A stretch of DNA of 32,868 nucleotides. It comes from an uncultured Olsenella sp. (lineage in GTDB: Bacteria > Actinomycetota > Coriobacteriia > Coriobacteriales > Atopobiaceae). Numbering within the stretch: position 1 is the first letter of the stretch; each line of letters starts with the position of its first letter. Under the pieces are notes generated by a model. That model saw nothing but the letters and a program-made list of their open reading frames with translations. It ran no database searches and was not told the origin of the DNA. Both the position numbers and the translations under genes were made by a program. Positions 2,554 to 32,868 of the stretch are shown piece by piece. Location of the stretch: positions 1 to 32,868 of the forward strand of contig OMVS01000030.1 of NCBI GenBank assembly GCA_900314575.1, written 5' to 3'.

Positions 2554-3057
2554 TCAGCACTCGCCTCGTCCGGCGCGGGTGCGCGCCCTGCCGGAGCGGC
2601 TGCCCTTGGGGTGCCAGTCCGTGAGGCCCTCGATCTCGTTCTGGTCGTTGCGGCGGTTGATGATGTCCGCGAGGGTCTTGCTGTCGAGGTACTCCGCCAT
2701 GACCTTGCCGAGGTCGCGCCAGACCGTGACGGTGGGGCAGGTGTTGATGATGGGGCAGATCTCGTCGTTGGTGCAGTCGAGGCAGGCCACGGGGGCGAGG
2801 GAGCCCTCGGCCGCCCGGAGGATCTGGCCCAGGGTATAGTCCTCGGGCCTGCGCGTGAGCCGGTAGCCGCCACCCTTGCCGCGCTGGCTCTCCACGTAGC
2901 CGGCCTTGTGCATGAGCGAGATCACCTGCTCGAGGTACTTGCGCGAGATGTTCTGCCTCCTCGAGACATCGCCGAGTGAAATCCATCCGTCGTGCGTGGC
3001 CAGGTCGGCCATGGCGCGTAGGGCGTACTTGCCCTTGGTGGAGAACATGCCAGACAT
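2554..3057 (-). CDS. Rrf2-family Fe-S-sensing transcriptional regulator of the suf operon
   Basis: A 167-residue winged-helix regulator. The N-terminal Rrf2 domain (MFSTKGKYALRAMADLA, recognition region ISRKYLEQVISLMHKAGYV, wing RGKGGGYRL at 59-67) is followed by Cys92, Cys95, Cys101 and Cys107. The spacing C95-X5-C101-X5-C107 equals that of the cluster ligands in E. coli IscR (C92, C98, C104), so it probably binds an Fe-S cluster and senses cluster supply. The start at 3057 has AAGGGAG six bases upstream; the earlier in-frame ATG (3075) has no such site. It is the last gene of the suf operon, separated from sufU by a 14-bp hairpin. Its likely target is the palindrome at 8393-8416. The residues are seen; the regulatory role is inferred. 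Confidence 0.85.
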   Translation of the reverse strand: MSGMFSTKGKYALRAMADLATHDGWISLGDVSRRQNISRKYLEQVISLMHKAGYVESQRGKGGGYRLTRRPEDYTLGQILRAAEGSLAPVACLDCTNDEICPIINTCPTVTVWRDLGKVMAEYLDSKTLADIINRRNDQNEIEGLTDWHPKGSRSGRARTRAGRGEC

Positions 3058-3093
3058 CTCGCGCTCCCTTCGCATCGTGGTCTGGTCGGGTGC

Positions 3094-3133
3094 GGCCCGG
3101 ACCTGCCGACCACATGGTGGGCAGGTCCGGGCC
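3094..3133 (-). other. Long intercistronic hairpin between sufU and rrf2
   Basis: A perfect 14-bp inverted repeat (GGCCCGGACCTGCC at 3094-3107, its complement at 3120-3133) has a further CCAC/GTGG pairing inside the loop. There is no T-run on the minus strand. It may be an attenuator or an mRNA stability/processing element that lowers rrf2 expression relative to suf, or a DNA operator. Confidence 0.55.
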
Positions 3134-3184: not shown

Positions 3185-3649
3185 CTAGGCGCCCTCGGTC
3201 GTGCTCGCCTCCGAGGACACGCCCTTCAGCATCTCGGAGAGGGTGCGCCAGGCGAGCTCCGCGCACTTGACGCGCGCAGGCATGTGGCTCACGTCCTTGA
3301 GCATGGCGGCCTCGTCGAGGTCCTCGTCGAGCTTCTCCGCGTCGGTCTCCTTGCCGGTGACCATGTCCTTGAAGAGCCCGCAGAGGGCGACGGCCTCCTC
3401 GGGGGTCTTGCCGACCATGAGGTCGCTCATCATGTCGGCCGACGCCATGGAGACGGCGCAGCCGTGTCCGGTGTAGGCCGCCTCCTCGATCCTGCCGTCG
3501 TCGCCGAGCTTCACCTTGAGGTGCAGCTCGTCGCCGCAGCTCGGGTTGATGCCGTCGTGCTCGCAGGTGCAGTCTCCCATGTCGTACTTGTAGTCGGGGT
3601 GCGCGACGTGGTCCATGAACTGAGCGTTATACAGGCTAGTTACGTCCAT
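3185..3649 (-). CDS. sufU: SufU-type sulfur-transfer protein
   Basis: A 154-residue U-type protein that takes persulfide sulfur from SufS and passes it to the SufBCD scaffold. The zinc/sulfur residues of B. subtilis SufU (C41, D43, C66, C128) are matched by Cys38 and Asp40 in NPSCGD, Cys64 in GHGCAVSMASADMM and Cys129 in ARVKCAELAW. The insertion after GHGC that distinguishes SufU from IscU is present. The ATG lies inside the sufS end (14-bp overlap, 3636-3649), implying translational coupling. An extra Cys27-X-Cys29 precedes NPSCGD and is not in the B. subtilis protein as I recall it. Confidence 0.93.
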   Translation of the reverse strand: MDVTSLYNAQFMDHVAHPDYKYDMGDCTCEHDGINPSCGDELHLKVKLGDDGRIEEAAYTGHGCAVSMASADMMSDLMVGKTPEEAVALCGLFKDMVTGKETDAEKLDEDLDEAAMLKDVSHMPARVKCAELAWRTLSEMLKGVSSEASTTEGA

Positions 3650-4916
3650 TGAAGATGCTCCAGACTTGCTCGAGGCCCTCGACGAGCCGGTCGATGTCCG
3701 CCTTGTCGTTGTAGAACGCCACGCTCGCGCGGCAGGTGCTGTTGTAGCCGAGGTAGGTGAGCAGGGGCTGCGCGCAGTGGTGACCCGCGCGGATGCAGAC
3801 GCCGCGCATGTCGAGGATCGACGCGACGTCGTGCGGGTGCACGCCGCGGACGTCGAAGCTCACGGCGCCCACGTGGCGCGCGCCGTCGGCGGGGCCCACG
3901 ACGGTCACGAAGTCGAGTCCGGCGAGGGAGTCGGTCAGGTAGCGGGCGAGGAGGCGCTCGCGCCCCTCGACCTCCTCCATGCCGACGGACTCGAGGTAGG
4001 TGAGGTCGGCGTCGAAGGCGTAGGCGCCGGCGGCGTCCTGCGTGCCCGCCTCGAACTTCTGCGGCACGGGCGCCCAGACGGCGTCCTCCTCGGTCACCGA
4101 GTCGATCATCTCGCCGCCGGTCAGGAAGGGCGGCATCCGCTCGAGGAGGTCGTGCTTGCCCCACAGGACGCCGATCCCCATGGGGCCGCCCATCTTGTGC
4201 GCGCTGAAGGCCAGGAAGTCGCAGCCGAGCTCGCGGACGTCGACCTTGAGGTGCGGGACGCTTTGGGCGCCGTCGACCACGCACAGGGCGCCGACCGCGT
4301 GGGCCGCGGCAGCGATCGGGCGGATGTCGTTCTCCACGCCGAGGACGTTGGAGACGTGGGTCACCGAGACGATCTTGGTCCTCGGTCCGATCTTGCGCGC
4401 GACCTCCTCGGGCGTGATGCGGTAGTCGTCCAGCCTGAGGTAGACGAGCTTGGCGCCGGTCCGGCGGCAGACCTGCTGCCAGGGGATGATGTTGGAGTGG
4501 TGCTCCATGATGGAGACGCAGACCTCGTCACCGGGGCCGAGCCCGACGACGTCGGGAAGCGTGTGGGCGAGGAGGTTCAGCGACTCGCTCGCGTTGCGTG
4601 TGAAGATGACGTCGTCTGCGGCCGGCTCGCCGTCCTCGCCGACGGCTCCGATGGTGCGCGCGATGTGGGCGCGGGCGTCGGCGATGGCCTGGGTGGCCTC
4701 GACGGAGAGGCGGTAGAGGCCGCGCAGGGGGTTGGCGTTCATCGTCTCGTAGAAGCGACGCTGGGCGTCGAGCACCTGCCTGGGACGCTGCGACGTGGCG
4801 GCGCTGTCCAGGAAGGCGAGGTCGGGGTTGTCCGCGAGCAGCGGGAAGTCCGCCTTGTACGGGCTCTGGGCGATCAGGGCGAGCTCGTCTGCGGTGAGGT
4901 TCGTGCTGGCTGCCAT
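3636..4916 (-). CDS. sufS: SufS cysteine desulfurase (group II, PLP-dependent)
   Basis: A 426-residue class V aminotransferase-fold enzyme that converts cysteine to alanine and holds the sulfur as a persulfide for Fe-S assembly. PLP is bound by Lys241 (FSAHKMGGP), with His140 in MEHHSN stacking on the cofactor. The persulfide Cys381 is in RAGHHCAQP, the short-loop form typical of group II enzymes that need SufU or SufE. The start at 4916 lies two bases after the sufD stop, with GGGGAGG just upstream inside sufD. The open frame continues upstream of this ATG, but that part overlaps sufD and has no homology. The end overlaps sufU. Confidence 0.95.
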   Translation of the reverse strand: MAASTNLTADELALIAQSPYKADFPLLADNPDLAFLDSAATSQRPRQVLDAQRRFYETMNANPLRGLYRLSVEATQAIADARAHIARTIGAVGEDGEPAADDVIFTRNASESLNLLAHTLPDVVGLGPGDEVCVSIMEHHSNIIPWQQVCRRTGAKLVYLRLDDYRITPEEVARKIGPRTKIVSVTHVSNVLGVENDIRPIAAAAHAVGALCVVDGAQSVPHLKVDVRELGCDFLAFSAHKMGGPMGIGVLWGKHDLLERMPPFLTGGEMIDSVTEEDAVWAPVPQKFEAGTQDAAGAYAFDADLTYLESVGMEEVEGRERLLARYLTDSLAGLDFVTVVGPADGARHVGAVSFDVRGVHPHDVASILDMRGVCIRAGHHCAQPLLTYLGYNSTCRASVAFYNDKADIDRLVEGLEQVWSIFNGRN

Positions 4917-4918
4917 GG

Positions 4919-6061
4919 CTAGGCCTCCCCTTCCGTGTCGGCGCACTCGAGCTCGAGGCCCTCGGCGAGGTCGAGTGCGACCTCCTGGCCGAGGACCGCC
5001 GCAGCGCGGTCGAGGACTGCCCTGCGGGCGGACGCGGTCGGGGAGGAGATCACGGCGTCGTCGAAGAGCGCCCTCACGAAGAGGTCGTTCGCCTCCTCCT
5101 CGCTGAGGCCACGGTCGCGCAGGTACTGCAGCTGCTCGCCGCCGATCGAGCCGATCGTGGCGCCGTGGTTGCCCTGGACGTCGTCCTCGTCGCACAGGAT
5201 GACCGGCATGGTCTTGTTGACCACGTCGTCTCCGGTGACAAGGACCGTCTCCGCCTCGTCGCCCTTGGCGCCCTTGGCGCCGTGGACGAGGTCGATGGTG
5301 GCGCGCAGGCTCTTGTGCGCCGCGTCCGCGAGCACGCCGCTCTCGTCCACATGGGCGCGGCTGTTCTCGCCGCGCTGGCGCACGACGTGGTTGATGTCTA
5401 GGACGTCGGTGCCCCTGCCGAGGTAGCGCGTCTGGAGGTTGATCCTGGCGCGGTCGCCCGCGAGGTCCGCCGCGAGGCCCACGGCCTGGGTCGCGCCGCC
5501 GAGGAGGTACTGGCGCACCTCGATGGTGGCGTCGTCGTCGGCCACGATGCCGACGCTTTCGAGGTGGGTCTCGGCGTCCGGGAGGGCGAGGACCTCGAAG
5601 AGGTGGAGTCTAGTGCGCTTCTCGCACACGATGCGGGTGAGTGCCGCGGAGGTCGCGGCCTCGCTGCCGCCGCCGTGGGCGACCACGACGACCGTCGCCT
5701 CGGCGCCCTCGCGGATCATGACCCCTGTGTCTGCGACCTGGCCGGCGTCGGCGTCTACGTCGACGACGACGGGCTCCGTGCGCACCGTGTTCCGGGGGAC
5801 CTCGACGTAGGTGGCGTCTGCCGCCTGGCTCGTGACCCACTCGGTCACCTTGTCGCCCATGCCGCACTCGATCCTGCCGAAGAGCTGGGGGAGGGCGAAG
5901 TAGACGTCGCCCTTGCGCGAGATCGCGGGCACCGTGAGGGTTATGTCGTTGGCCCTGAGGTAGTTCCAGGTCTCGGCGGGGGGCGTGTTGACGTGGGAGA
6001 GGGTGACCTTGCGGGGCTCGTCCGCGACGGCGGCCCCGAGCGTTGCGTTATCGTCCGCCAT
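4919..6061 (-). CDS. sufD: SufD, Fe-S scaffold subunit
   Basis: A 380-residue beta-helix protein that pairs with SufB and SufC to form the SufBC2D cluster-building scaffold. The C-terminal core carries CDEDDVQGNHGATIG, whose His corresponds to E. coli SufD His360 at the SufB-SufD interface, then an all-helical end (YLRDRGLSEEEANDLF). The start ATG shares its A with the last base of the sufB TAA (TAATG on the minus strand), with GGAAGGAG upstream, so the two are translationally coupled. SufD normally has a less conserved N-terminal half than SufB, as here. Codon use matches its neighbours. Confidence 0.93.
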   Translation of the reverse strand: MADDNATLGAAVADEPRKVTLSHVNTPPAETWNYLRANDITLTVPAISRKGDVYFALPQLFGRIECGMGDKVTEWVTSQAADATYVEVPRNTVRTEPVVVDVDADAGQVADTGVMIREGAEATVVVVAHGGGSEAATSAALTRIVCEKRTRLHLFEVLALPDAETHLESVGIVADDDATIEVRQYLLGGATQAVGLAADLAGDRARINLQTRYLGRGTDVLDINHVVRQRGENSRAHVDESGVLADAAHKSLRATIDLVHGAKGAKGDEAETVLVTGDDVVNKTMPVILCDEDDVQGNHGATIGSIGGEQLQYLRDRGLSEEEANDLFVRALFDDAVISSPTASARRAVLDRAAAVLGQEVALDLAEGLELECADTEGEA

Positions 6062-7488
6062 TAGCCGATCGCTCCTTCCATCTCGAGTTTGATGAGGTTG
6101 TTCATCTCGACCGCGTACTCCAGCGGGAGCTCCTTGGACACGGGGTTGGCGAAGCCGTTGACGACCATGGTGCGGGCCTCGGCCTCCGAGCAGCCGCGGC
6201 TCATGAGGTAGAGGATCGTGTCGTCGGAGATGCGGCCGATCGTGGCCTCGTGGCCGACGCTCGCGGTGGGGTTGCGCACGTCCATGGCCGGGATGGTGTC
6301 GGAGCGGCTGATGTTGTCGAGCATGAGCGACTGGCAGCTCACCGTGGCGCGCGCGTTGTCGGCGTGCTTGCCCACGACGACGGAGCTCCTGAAGGTGTTG
6401 ACGCCGCCGTCCTTGGAGATGGACTTGGTCTCCACCGAGGCGGTCGTGTCGCGGCCGTTGAGGACGACCTTGCAGCCGGTGTCGAGGTCCTGGGTGGCGC
6501 CGGCGAAGGTGATGCCGGTGAACTCGCAGCTCGAGCGGTCCCCCTGCAGGATCGTGGTGGGGTAGAGGTAGGAGACGTGGCTGCCGAAGCTGCCCGAGAC
6601 CCACTCCATCTTGGAGTCCGCCCCCACCTTGGCGCGCTTGGTGTTGAGGTTGTACATGTTCTTGGACCAGTTCTCGATGGTCGAGTAGCGCAGGCGCGCG
6701 TGGTCCTTCACGTAGAGCTCGACCGCGCCGGCGTGCAGGTTGGCCTCGTAGTACTTGGGCGCTGAGCAGCCCTCGATGAAGTGCAGGTCCGCGCCGGGCT
6801 CCACGATGATCAGCGTGTGCTCGAACTGGCCCGCGCCCTGGGCGTTCAGGCGGAAGTAGCTCTGCAGCGGGTACTCGACGGTCACGCCCTCGGGCACGTA
6901 GACGAACGAGCCGCCCGACCACACGGCGTAGTGCAGCGCCGCGAACTTGTGGTCGCGCATGGGGATGAGCTTGCCGAAGTACTCGTGGACGACGGGCTCC
7001 CACTTGGGGTCCTGCAGCGCGTCCTCGATCGTGGTGTAGACCACGCCGTACTTGGCGACCTCCTCGCGCATGTTGTGGTAGACGATCTCCGAGTCGTACT
7101 GGGCACCGACGCCGGCCAGCGAGTCGCGCTCCGCCTGCGGGATGCCGAGGCGCTCGAAGGTGTCCTTGATGTCCTTCGGCACGTCGTCCCAGTCCCTCGC
7201 CTGCTTGGTCTTGGGCGAGACGTACGTGGAGATGTGGTCCATGTCGAGCCCGGCGATGGAGGGGCCCCAGTTGGGCGCCATCTGCCGCTCGTGGAAGACC
7301 TCGAGCGCCTCGAGGCGCAGGTCGAGCATCCACTGGGGCTCGCTCTTCTTCTCGGAGATGGAGCGCACGATCTCGGGCGTGAGGCCGTCGGCGTAGCGCT
7401 CGTATCCCTCCTCGCTCTTCACGAAGTCGTAGATGGAGCGGTCGACGTCGGCGACCTGCGTCCTCTTGACGTCTCGGGTGTCGCTCAC
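6061..7488 (-). CDS. sufB: SufB, Fe-S scaffold subunit
   Basis: A 475-residue scaffold on which the nascent cluster forms. It shows the highly conserved SufB blocks: EPQWMLDLRLEAL, the central beta-helix FIEGCSAPKYYEANLHAG, YSTIENWSKNMYNLNTKRA, and MDVRNPTASVGHEATIGRISDDTILYLMSRG near the C-terminus. Cys residues in FIEGCSAP and in the late helix are candidates for the sulfur channel or cluster. Translation starts at a GTG (7488-7486) that overlaps the sufC TGA by four bases (GTGA), so coupling is expected. Length is normal for the family (about 465-480). Confidence 0.95.
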   Translation of the reverse strand: MSDTRDVKRTQVADVDRSIYDFVKSEEGYERYADGLTPEIVRSISEKKSEPQWMLDLRLEALEVFHERQMAPNWGPSIAGLDMDHISTYVSPKTKQARDWDDVPKDIKDTFERLGIPQAERDSLAGVGAQYDSEIVYHNMREEVAKYGVVYTTIEDALQDPKWEPVVHEYFGKLIPMRDHKFAALHYAVWSGGSFVYVPEGVTVEYPLQSYFRLNAQGAGQFEHTLIIVEPGADLHFIEGCSAPKYYEANLHAGAVELYVKDHARLRYSTIENWSKNMYNLNTKRAKVGADSKMEWVSGSFGSHVSYLYPTTILQGDRSSCEFTGITFAGATQDLDTGCKVVLNGRDTTASVETKSISKDGGVNTFRSSVVVGKHADNARATVSCQSLMLDNISRSDTIPAMDVRNPTASVGHEATIGRISDDTILYLMSRGCSEAEARTMVVNGFANPVSKELPLEYAVEMNNLIKLEMEGAIG

Positions 7489-8255
7489 TCGGCATCACCC
7501 CTCGCCTCAGCCTCGCGCTCGAAGCGCTCGAAGCCGTGGGCGTCGATGTCGTCGATGAGCGAGGCGGGGCCCTCCGCAACGAGGCGGCCCTTCACCATCA
7601 CGTGCGTGCGGTCGACGGTGAGCTTCTCGAGGATGCGGGTGTTGTGCGTGATCATGAGCAGCGCGCCGTCGCAGGTCCTGCGGTAGGCCTCGATGCCGCG
7701 AGAGACGACGGAGAGGGCGTCGACGTCGAGGCCGGAGTCGGTCTCGTCGAGGATGGCCAGCTTGGGCCTGAGCAGCAGGAGCTGGAGCATCTCGATCTTC
7801 TTCTTCTCGCCGCCCGAGAAGCCCACGTTGAGCTCGCGGGTGAGGAAGCTCTGGCTGAGGTCGAGCTCGTCGGCAATCTCGCCCACGCGCTTGCGGAACT
7901 CCTTGGCGGTCATCTTGAGCTCGGGACGCTTCTGGGTGATGGTGCGCAGGAAGCTGTAGAGGGGCACGCCAGGGACCTCGACGGGGGCCTGGTAGGAGAG
8001 GAAGATGCCGGCCAGGGAGCGCTTGTCGGCGCCCTCATCCGTGAGGTCCTGCCCCGCGAACTCGATCCTGCCGGAGCTGACCTTGTAGACGGGGTCGCCC
8101 ATGATCACATGGCCGAGCGTTGACTTGCCCGCGCCGTTGGGCCCCATGAGGACGTGGGTCTCGCCGGCCGCGACCGAGATGTCGATGTCGTGCAGGATGG
8201 GGTTGTCCTCGGTCCCAGCCGAGAGGCCTGATACTCGAAGTAGCTGCTCTGACAT
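7485..8255 (-). CDS. sufC: SufC, ABC-type ATPase of Fe-S assembly
   Basis: A 256-residue soluble ABC ATPase that drives conformational change in the SufBC2D scaffold; it is not a transporter subunit. It has Walker A GPNGAGKST (about 39-47), the Q-loop region LSYQAPVEVPGV typical of SufC, signature FSGGEKKKIEML, Walker B LAILDETDSGLDVDAL (Asp-Glu) and the switch His in MITHNTRIL. An AGGAGAG site precedes the ATG. It is the first gene of the suf operon, with a leader of 100 to 140 bases carrying a promoter and palindrome. Confidence 0.96.
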   Translation of the reverse strand: MSEQLLRVSGLSAGTEDNPILHDIDISVAAGETHVLMGPNGAGKSTLGHVIMGDPVYKVSSGRIEFAGQDLTDEGADKRSLAGIFLSYQAPVEVPGVPLYSFLRTITQKRPELKMTAKEFRKRVGEIADELDLSQSFLTRELNVGFSGGEKKKIEMLQLLLLRPKLAILDETDSGLDVDALSVVSRGIEAYRRTCDGALLMITHNTRILEKLTVDRTHVMVKGRLVAEGPASLIDDIDAHGFERFEREAEARGDAE

Positions 8256-8362: not shown

Positions 8363-8425
8363 TTTATAGCCGCGGGCCCTTTTGTTTCACGCAATTCATA
8401 CTAATTAGTAGGAATTAAAACTCAA
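8363..8425 (-). promoter_or_regulatory. suf operon promoter region
   Basis: Two overlapping minus-strand promoter candidates exist. P1: -35 GTGAAA (8390-8385), 16-bp spacer, -10 TATAAA (8368-8363). P2: -35 TTGAGT (8425-8420), 16-bp spacer, -10 TAGTAT (8403-8398). The 24-bp palindrome at 8393-8416 covers the spacer and -10 of P2 and abuts the -35 of P1. A protein bound there could therefore repress P2 or activate P1. The sequence alone cannot decide which promoter is used. Confidence 0.5.
8393..8416. promoter_or_regulatory. 24-bp palindromic operator, probable Rrf2 site
   Basis: The arms AATTC and GAATT flank a perfect 12-bp palindrome TACTAATTAGTA. Only the pair 8398/8411 fails to match, so 23 of the 24 bases fit a perfect dyad apart from that one pair. 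It is strikingly AT-rich in a GC-rich region and sits at the suf promoter. Rrf2 proteins bind dyads of about this length, and the operon encodes one (2554-3057). Confidence 0.6.
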
Positions 8426-8476
8426 GGGAAAAGTGGGGAGACAGCGGAAGGGGCCGGGACCGGGGCGGCGCCGCGC

Positions 8477-20299: not shown

Positions 20300-20538
20300 T
20301 GCGCACGATAGAGGAGCGAGCACGAAGAGCGCGGGCGAGCCGGCAGGCCGGGACCCCGTGGGAGGCGAGGTTCGCCGAATCTGCGCGCCGGGCGCGGCGT
20401 GCGGGTGGGCATGTGGGAAAGACCCCCATGACTGTCTGCAGGATGCTGCAGGTGCGCTATCTTACGGCGAGCCACACTCCCCTCCGGAGCCTCGCAGGTA
20501 AGCCAGCCGCCTGCTTGCCGGATCGGAGGGAGAGCGTC
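20300..20538 (+). other. Leader region upstream of lysA
   Basis: A 239-bp gap inside an otherwise tight operon. It can fold into several hairpins: 20410-20430 (CATGTGGG, loop AAAGA, CCCCCATG, one mismatch), a doubled CTGCAG (20437-20451) and GGTAAGC-N9-GCTTGCC (20497-20519). No lysine riboswitch or T-box core was recognised. It is open in the lysA frame from an ATG at 20299, but its codon use (ATA, AGA, CGA, GAA, TAT, CTT) is unlike the neighbouring genes, so it is judged non-coding. Confidence 0.45.
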
Positions 20539-31385: not shown

Positions 31386-32868
31386 ATGACACTCCACATC
31401 ATCCAGACCAACGACTACGGCATCGTGTCCGCGCCCTGCGCGCGGGTCCTCCGGGAGGCCGTCGCCTCGACGGGGGCCGCGGCGCTCCTCGCGCCCTCGC
31501 TCGGCCAGGCGCTCGACATGCAGCGCGCGCTCGCGGACGAGGAGGGCCTCGCGCTCGGCGTCACGTGCACCACGCCGGGCCTGTGGGCCAAGGAGCGCTG
31601 GGGCGTCTGGGGCGACGGCTCCGCGATCGTCTCCGCGCGGGAGCGCTACGTTCTTCTGCGCCTCGTGGTGGCCGACGCCTCCGAGGGGGACCTCGCCGGG
31701 CTCCCCGCCACCCCCGGCCTCGTCAAGACGCTCGCGCGCCTCGCCTCCTCCTCGCTGCCGTGGCTCCCGCTCGCCAAAGACGGCCGCGTCGACGACGCCG
31801 ACCCGCGCGCCGCCGGGCTCGGACGGGGCGAGAGGGCCGTGCTCTCGCTGCTCGGCGCCTACCGCGGCGCCCTGCGCGAGCGCGGCCGCGTCGAGGCCTG
31901 CGAGGCGATGGTGCGCCTCCCGGAGGCGCTCGAGGAGGCCGGCGCCGCGGCCGTCCCCGTCGTCCTCAACGGGGTCGCCCCCGCCTCCGCGGCGGAGCGC
32001 GCCCTGGCGGTGGGCCTGGCGGCCGCCGCCCCCGTGTGCTGGGTCGTGCCGGTCGACGCTGGCCCGGCGTCTGACGTCTCGCGCGATCTCGTCGCCACGC
32101 TTCGCTCCGAGGCCGGCGCCGCGGGAGTCGAGGTGGCGTGCGAGGAACCCCTCGGCGGGACGGGCGCACCCGCCAGCGGAGACGAGCTCTCGCGTCTGCG
32201 CGCGTCCCTGTTCCGCGCCGACGTCGCTCCCGTGGAGCCGCAGGGGCAGGTGAGGTGCGCGCTCGCGCTGGGCCCGCTCGCCGAGGCGGAGCTCGTCTGC
32301 CAGGAGGTCACGGGGCTCGTCGCCGAGGGCTGCACGGACGTCGTCGTCGCCTGCCCCGACCCCGCGAGGACGTGGGACGCCCTCGCGCCCAAGCTCGCCG
32401 CCCGCGGCCTTCTCGCCGAGGGCTCCGTCCAAAGGCGGGTGGCGGACCTCCCCGCGACGAGGGCCTTCCTCGGCTTCGCCGCGCAGGTGGCCCAGCTCCA
32501 GGAGCTCGCCTGCTCCTGGCCGGAGGACGAGCAGGGCGAGGAGGGCCCGGTGCCCGCCCTCGGCGACATGTCGTGGTGGCCGCCCCGGGCGCTCACCGAC
32601 TTCCTTCTCTCCGACGCGTCCGGGGTCGCCAGGGAGCGCGCCTACGCGCTCGACCTGAAGTGGCGCGGCAACCGCATGCTCTCGCCCGCGCAGGTCCTCG
32701 CCCAGCTCCAGAGGCGCGCCTCCACCTCCGACGAGGTCGCCCGCGCCACGGCGGCCCTGCTCAGGGGCCGCCTGTCGACCGCCGCCCTCGAGCTCGAGCG
32801 CGGCGTCCGCGCGCGGCTCGAGGCCAGGCGCGCGCTCGACCCCGACGGGGTCGCCCGCGCCGGCGGCG
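31386..32868 (+). CDS. Putative AddB/RexB-like PD-(D/E)XK nuclease-family protein, N-terminal part
   Basis: An open frame of 494 codons runs off the window; a GAGGAGAGGGG site precedes the ATG. It begins MTLHIIQTNDYGIVSAPCAR and continues as an Ala/Leu/Arg-rich helical protein with segments such as ALLAPSLGQALDMQRALADE and CQEVTGLVAEGCTDVVVACPDP. The latter resembles the helicase-like half of AddB/RexB, where a pseudo-ATPase domain scans DNA ends. No Walker A motif is visible, as in RexB-type proteins. The C-terminal nuclease motifs would lie outside the window. I recall similar yerC-addB neighbours in Coriobacteriia. The assignment is moderate and rests on overall pattern rather than a catalytic motif. 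Confidence 0.55.
   Translation, partial: MTLHIIQTNDYGIVSAPCARVLREAVASTGAAALLAPSLGQALDMQRALADEEGLALGVTCTTPGLWAKERWGVWGDGSAIVSARERYVLLRLVVADASEGDLAGLPATPGLVKTLARLASSSLPWLPLAKDGRVDDADPRAAGLGRGERAVLSLLGAYRGALRERGRVEACEAMVRLPEALEEAGAAAVPVVLNGVAPASAAERALAVGLAAAAPVCWVVPVDAGPASDVSRDLVATLRSEAGAAGVEVACEEPLGGTGAPASGDELSRLRASLFRADVAPVEPQGQVRCALALGPLAEAELVCQEVTGLVAEGCTDVVVACPDPARTWDALAPKLAARGLLAEGSVQRRVADLPATRAFLGFAAQVAQLQELACSWPEDEQGEEGPVPALGDMSWWPPRALTDFLLSDASGVARERAYALDLKWRGNRMLSPAQVLAQLQRRASTSDEVARATAALLRGRLSTAALELERGVRARLEARRALDPDGVARAGG

Follow-up and report, generated by a model that had tools for sequence, protein, structure and literature searches.

Introduction

In Escherichia coli, the DNA binding of the Rrf2 regulator IscR is governed by a [2Fe-2S] cluster. 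IscR represses or activates, depending on the promoter (PMC8593673). Its type 1 operator has the consensus ATASYYGACTRWWWYAGTCRRSTAT, and a glutamate in the recognition helix keeps the apo-protein off type 1 sites (PMC3899308). In Myxococcus xanthus, the Rrf2 protein RisR represses suf through an imperfect palindrome with AT-rich flanks, located at the promoter and with the core GAC-N7-GTC (PMC9973013). IscR of Thermincola potens (PDB 4cic) is a Gram-positive Rrf2 regulator of Fe-S genes, and CymR of the Bacillales and Cpe1786 of Clostridium perfringens are Rrf2 proteins that control cysteine synthesis genes (cysK). A role in cysteine-dependent control of Fe-S genes has been proposed for Cpe1786 (PMC2940859), and the motifs of IscR and CymR have been reported to be alike (PMC3828012).

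Here we describe a suf locus from an uncultured Olsenella sp., located on a stretch of 32,868 nucleotides to which we refer as the window. As in the case of E. coli IscR, its Rrf2 protein is encoded inside an Fe-S assembly operon thought to be under its control, and the two systems share the X5-X5 cysteine spacing, the recognition-helix glutamate, an operator (here putative) over the promoter and, in the model proposed below, negative feedback. They differ in that rrf2 closes the suf operon whereas iscR opens the isc operon, in that Val stands in place of His107 and there is an additional Cys98, and in that no evidence was found here for a type 2 site or for activation. With RisR, the locus has in common an Rrf2 protein as putative suf repressor and an imperfect promoter palindrome in AT-rich surroundings, but the palindrome reads CCTACT-N4-AGTAKG and the GAC core is absent. 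Putative control of cysK is shared with CymR and Cpe1786; in contrast to these, the regulator gene lies in the suf operon, and its product scores under the CymR equivalog cut-off and has four cysteines. The suf Rrf2 protein probably acts in the manner of IscR or RisR, on targets of the CymR kind, and we class it with neither.

Results and discussion

The suf operon

The operon occupies the minus strand of the window in the order sufC, sufB, sufD, sufS, sufU, rrf2. The genes sufC (7485-8255; TIGR01978, 276.8 bits, cut-off 212.8), sufB (6061-7488; TIGR01980, 640 bits), sufS (3636-4922, start approximate; TIGR01979, 501 bits) and sufU (3185-3649; TIGR01994, 142 bits) were assigned by family matches; sufD (4919-6064) matches TIGR01981 below the curated cut-off (E=9.9e-49) and was assigned by position and similarity. 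The presumed regulator gene, rrf2 (2554-3075), encodes a member of the Rrf2 superfamily (PF02082, 128.8 bits, cut-off 30; TIGR00738, 125.6 bits, cut-off 73.3), an assignment to which the cysteine conservation described below adds. Rrf2 is its only Pfam match, which places it outside the SufR family.

The terminal position of rrf2, pointed out in the preliminary description, is no local oddity. It is conserved in relatives: every named locus with a complete sufCBDSU-rrf2 operon ends in rrf2. The distance between sufU and rrf2 is often 0-11 bp in relatives, compared with 109 bp here, where the gap holds a strong, perfect 14-bp hairpin (3094-3133, minus strand). The hairpin has no U-run and was rejected as an intrinsic terminator; it might instead reduce read-through or influence how the mRNA is processed. 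In relatives, repeats of the GGGACTGTCCC type are found in the same gap.

A near-perfect dyad upstream of sufC

The sequence AATTCATACTAATTAGTAGGAATT, at positions 8393-8416, reads AATTCCTACTAATTAGTATGAATT on the suf strand and forms a near-perfect dyad, with 12-nt arms, no spacer and 11 of 12 pairs complementary. It is located 161 bp 5' of the sufC start. A 24-bp, AT-rich palindrome broken at one base pair and standing out in GC-rich DNA had been claimed for this site, and the claim holds in each part: the sole asymmetric pair is 8398/8411, and the GC content is 29% at 8380-8430 versus 69% over the whole window. The window contains two 24-bp palindromes with at least 11/12 pairs, against a mean of 0.28 in its dinucleotide shuffles. 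The other one, at 32781, is GC-rich, and the suf dyad is the only AT-rich palindrome of its quality in the 33 kb, with none in 60 dinucleotide shuffles.

No second copy of the 24-bp dyad was found in the 2.1-Mb genome when up to three mismatches were allowed. A candidate second site at C85:27776 (two mismatches), beside which no Fe-S or cysteine gene was recognised, was treated as a chance occurrence. The suf region has no Rfam match to a riboswitch or other RNA; elsewhere in the window there is a lysine riboswitch (20301-20467, plus strand, 58.6 bits).

The dyad was said not to resemble the type 1 site of E. coli IscR, which is correct in the strict sense. The ungapped match to ATASYYGACTRWWWYAGTCRRSTAT covers 14 of 25 positions (shuffle mean 14.4) and a gapped alignment gives a p of about 0.15, so we rejected the dyad as an E. 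coli type 1 site.

Conservation in the Atopobiaceae

Atopobiaceae are a family of gut and oral bacteria. The close named relatives of the organism are Olsenella porci and rumen and pig-gut Olsenella or Coriobacteriales MAGs; the family was taken as Atopobiaceae from the names of further relatives. SufC was located in 127 of 129 genomes of the family, and 110 upstream regions were read. They were searched with the pattern AATHCC-N8-ASTAKGAWTT (AAT-H-CC-N8-ASTA-K-GAWTT), which has 16 specified positions, at a threshold of at least 14. The preliminary description had proposed conservation upstream of suf in relatives as a check, and the dyad passed: 97 of the 110 regions reach the threshold, a count of genomes and not of independent events. 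Because the search preselects the sites that were later scored by matrix, the controls are the only guard; the pattern was found at this threshold in 1 of 2,200 shuffles, in none of 106 flanking segments (-700 to -400) and, when reversed, in none of the 110 regions. Regions below 14/16 mostly contain variants such as AATCCCACTTCCAGTGGGGTATT. Exact matching across the 129 whole genomes gave 76 matches, and none for the reversed control pattern.

The most conserved parts of the dyad are the outer AATWCC and AGTAKGAWTT, rather than the inner TACTAATTAGTA that had first been noticed. The left half AATWCC is conserved like the right half, with 1.75-1.85 bits at T3, C5 and C6.

A second, more symmetric site is present 64-67 bp upstream in the genera g30 and g31, and 83-104 bp away in g22, g23 and g24. 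Of the two operators upstream of sufC in g30 and g31, only the downstream one has a TTG at promoter distance. Looping or cooperative repression by paired operators is possible in these two genera.

Pfam detects no Rrf2 gene in two genomes, G013 and G026, which also lack a dyad scoring above shuffles; both are small (1.5 and 1.0 Mb) and may be related, and they represent at most two events. In G004 and G115 the suf-type rrf2 was not seen either, but here the contig stops a short way downstream of sufC, which makes them uninformative on the absence of the gene. The link between the suf site and the Rrf2 protein is one of association. Family-wide conservation, joint absence and co-occurrence agree with the match first drawn between the palindrome and the 3'-encoded regulator, and the dyad (8393-8416, minus strand), conserved 5' of sufC in nearly all Atopobiaceae, is very probably its operator.

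The promoter within the dyad

The suf promoter consists of a -35 element TTGAGT (8420-8425) and, 16 bp downstream, a -10 element TAGTAT (8398-8403), both on the minus strand. The -10 element lies within the right half of the operator, and its last T, at 8398, is the asymmetric base of the dyad. In the window the promoter matches at 8 of 12 positions, which is under the threshold of the scan; the arrangement, in which the dyad overlaps a promoter TTGNNN-N16-TA[CG]TAT, is found in 13 genera. The TTG is kept at a fixed distance from the operator, at offset -9 in 66% of genera by weight and at -10 in 15%.

Base 19 of the dyad varies with this TTG. Sites with a correctly placed TTG mostly carry T at base 19 (61 of 70), which completes the -10 element; those that lack one mostly carry G (51 of 57), and symmetry is restored. 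By genus, the T:G ratios are 11:2 and 3:13, respectively (Fisher p = 7e-4). Since the same base either completes the -10 element or restores symmetry, the near-symmetry of the dyad appears to be a trade-off between its roles as operator and as promoter.

It could be argued that the conservation reflects an AT-rich promoter alone, with incidental symmetry, as the -10 element is in the right half and the -35 element is conserved alongside. However, the left half, which falls in the promoter spacer, is as conserved as the right, and sites without that -10 element (class B) keep the dyad in a more symmetric form. Furthermore, cysK and PFOR share the half-site (see below), and there is no dyad where Rrf2 is absent. 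We regard this explanation as extremely improbable.

The preliminary description listed two promoter candidates at the dyad and suggested that bound protein could repress one and activate the other. The embedded promoter stood up to comparison, being kept in 13 genera. The second candidate, with the -10-like element TATAAA (8363-8368, minus strand), is present in the window and probably no promoter: it has no counterpart in either of the two same-genus genomes, for which we rejected it, and the promoter scan found no -35 element of quality to pair with it. The idea of dual action draws on the presence of both -10-like elements in the window and on E. coli IscR, which does either at different promoters (PMC8593673). 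With the downstream element unconserved and the operator-embedded promoter conserved, the pattern points instead to plain repression, and we consider activation of a downstream promoter very improbable. Repression is also favoured by the geometry, because a protein on the dyad would cover the -10 element and the spacer.

The Rrf2 protein

Numbered from the ATG at 3075, the cysteines of the suf Rrf2 protein form the motif C98-X2-C101-X5-C107-X5-C113. Three of them (C101, C107 and C113) have the X5-X5 spacing of IscR. The motif agrees with the Cys-X5-Cys-X5-Cys plus one extra cysteine read initially, which was numbered from an ATG six codons later, and every one of the 59 readable relatives has all four cysteines. 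The recognition helix contains the glutamate (YLEQ). Three residues past the third cysteine, the position of the IscR His ligand is occupied by Val116, with Val in 57 of 60 relatives; the type of cluster, and even cluster binding, can therefore only be presumed.

The best NCBIfam equivalog match is IscR (TIGR02010, 109.8 bits, under the cut-off of 207.55), above CymR (NF047409, 84.3 bits, under the cut-off of 195), and the protein is below the equivalog cut-offs of IscR, CymR, NsrR and RirA alike. The nearest protein with a solved structure is T. potens IscR (98.7 bits).

The 3'-encoded Rrf2 proteins form one clade (SUF3, support 99/99). In most genomes sampled from sister families, an Rrf2 gene lies immediately 5' of sufC in divergent orientation; its product has C98, C107 and C113, with Leu in place of C101. 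The intergenic regions contain dyads of similar half-sites and promoters of the TTGAC-N17-TATCTT type. We considered a relocation of rrf2 from the divergent position with the operator staying in place; the SUF3 and divergent clades are well supported and are not sisters in the tree, which does not support this scenario. One genome placed outside the family, G208, has a suf operon of the Atopobiaceae type with a 3' rrf2 nested in the SUF3 clade, possibly acquired by horizontal transfer.

One or more Rrf2 paralogues are found in most relatives. The genome studied here encodes a second Rrf2 protein (C76:3250-3636), which is 29% identical and also has a CxxC-x5-C-x5-C motif.

Sites at cysK, cysE and PFOR

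Beyond suf, exact sites are located at the pyruvate oxidation gene PFOR (seven genomes, four genera), cysK (three genomes), cysE (two genomes, G046 and G048) and before a homoserine sulfhydrylase-like gene, the gene names being taken from translated N-termini and not from a family search. A scan with free spacing for paired half-sites (AATWCCTACT) upstream of cysK and PFOR found them before cysK in 20 of 24 genomes, this one included, and before PFOR in 10 of 29, compared with 0 of 53 inside the same genes. The cysK dyad of this genome, on contig C63, is TATTCCTACTTGCAAACTAGGAATA, 124 bp upstream; the scan found no site at its PFOR. The suf regulator thus has, with cysK and cysE, putative sites at cysteine synthesis genes, a trait of the CymR type.

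The spacing is 7 in 19 of 20 cysK sites, one base wider than the 6 seen mostly at suf, so outside the genus g15 another Rrf2 protein could read cysK. Paralogues might then divide the sites, the suf Rrf2 protein binding the 24-bp form and a CymR-like Rrf2 protein the 25-bp cysK form. Besides the spacing, the presence of more than one Rrf2 in most genomes and of a second Rrf2 gene adjoining a cysK copy in g6, g13 and g21 fits such a division. Yet these cysK-adjacent paralogues are confined to few genera, and about a quarter of suf dyads (28 of 107) likewise score best at the longer spacing. Moreover, in g15 (G027, 98% complete; G028, 99%) no Rrf2 other than the suf protein exceeds the Pfam cut-off and dyads are present at both suf and cysK, which indicates that one protein may serve both. 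We consider a division among paralogues possible, if rather doubtful.

The cysK and cysE targets, which resemble the CymR regulon, also raise the question of whether the protein is a cluster-free thiol or cysteine sensor like CymR instead of an Fe-S sensor. The lack of His at the IscR ligand position and the proposal of cysteine-dependent Fe-S gene control by Cpe1786 (PMC2940859) are in line with this. We find it unlikely, in view of the invariance of the four cysteines and their X5-X5 spacing, as in IscR and NsrR, the linkage of the gene to suf and not cysK, and the higher score for IscR than for CymR, both under cut-off.

Proposed mechanism

Our preferred explanation, which we hold to be likely on the comparative evidence, is that the suf Rrf2 protein is an IscR-like, probably cluster-sensing repressor, whose regulon would join Fe-S assembly, cysteine synthesis and PFOR. 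Within it, we infer binding, the cluster, the direction of the response and the use of one protein for all sites. The suf dyad would serve an autoregulatory loop as its operator. A dimer of the Rrf2 protein, made from the end of sufCBDSU-rrf2, would bind there and shut out RNA polymerase, since the -10 element and most of the suf promoter spacer fall inside the operator. If IscR and RisR are a guide, the cluster-loaded form would be the one that represses suf. When the supply of Fe-S clusters falls short, the cluster would be lost or not made and repression would lift; the whole operon, including rrf2, would then be transcribed, restoring supply and repressor together.

As the same half-site is present at cysK, cysE and PFOR, the regulator probably adjusts two things to cluster status: the supply of cysteine, from which SufS takes its sulfur, and a major consumer of Fe-S clusters. 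More tentatively, we speculate that a single four-cysteine Rrf2 protein responds to Fe-S status and controls all three of cluster assembly, cysteine synthesis and PFOR, merging roles held separately elsewhere by IscR and CymR, with the one-base spacing difference between the suf and PFOR sites and the cysK sites setting different responses; this is conceivable, though we would not yet favour it.

The asymmetric base of the dyad illustrates how one sequence can be both an operator and a -10 element. Because the family is culturable and the locus supplies a regulator together with a defined operator, a promoter and additional candidate targets, Gram-positive suf regulation becomes testable. Taken together, the sites at suf, cysK and PFOR hint that sulfur supply, cluster assembly and central anaerobic metabolism are connected.
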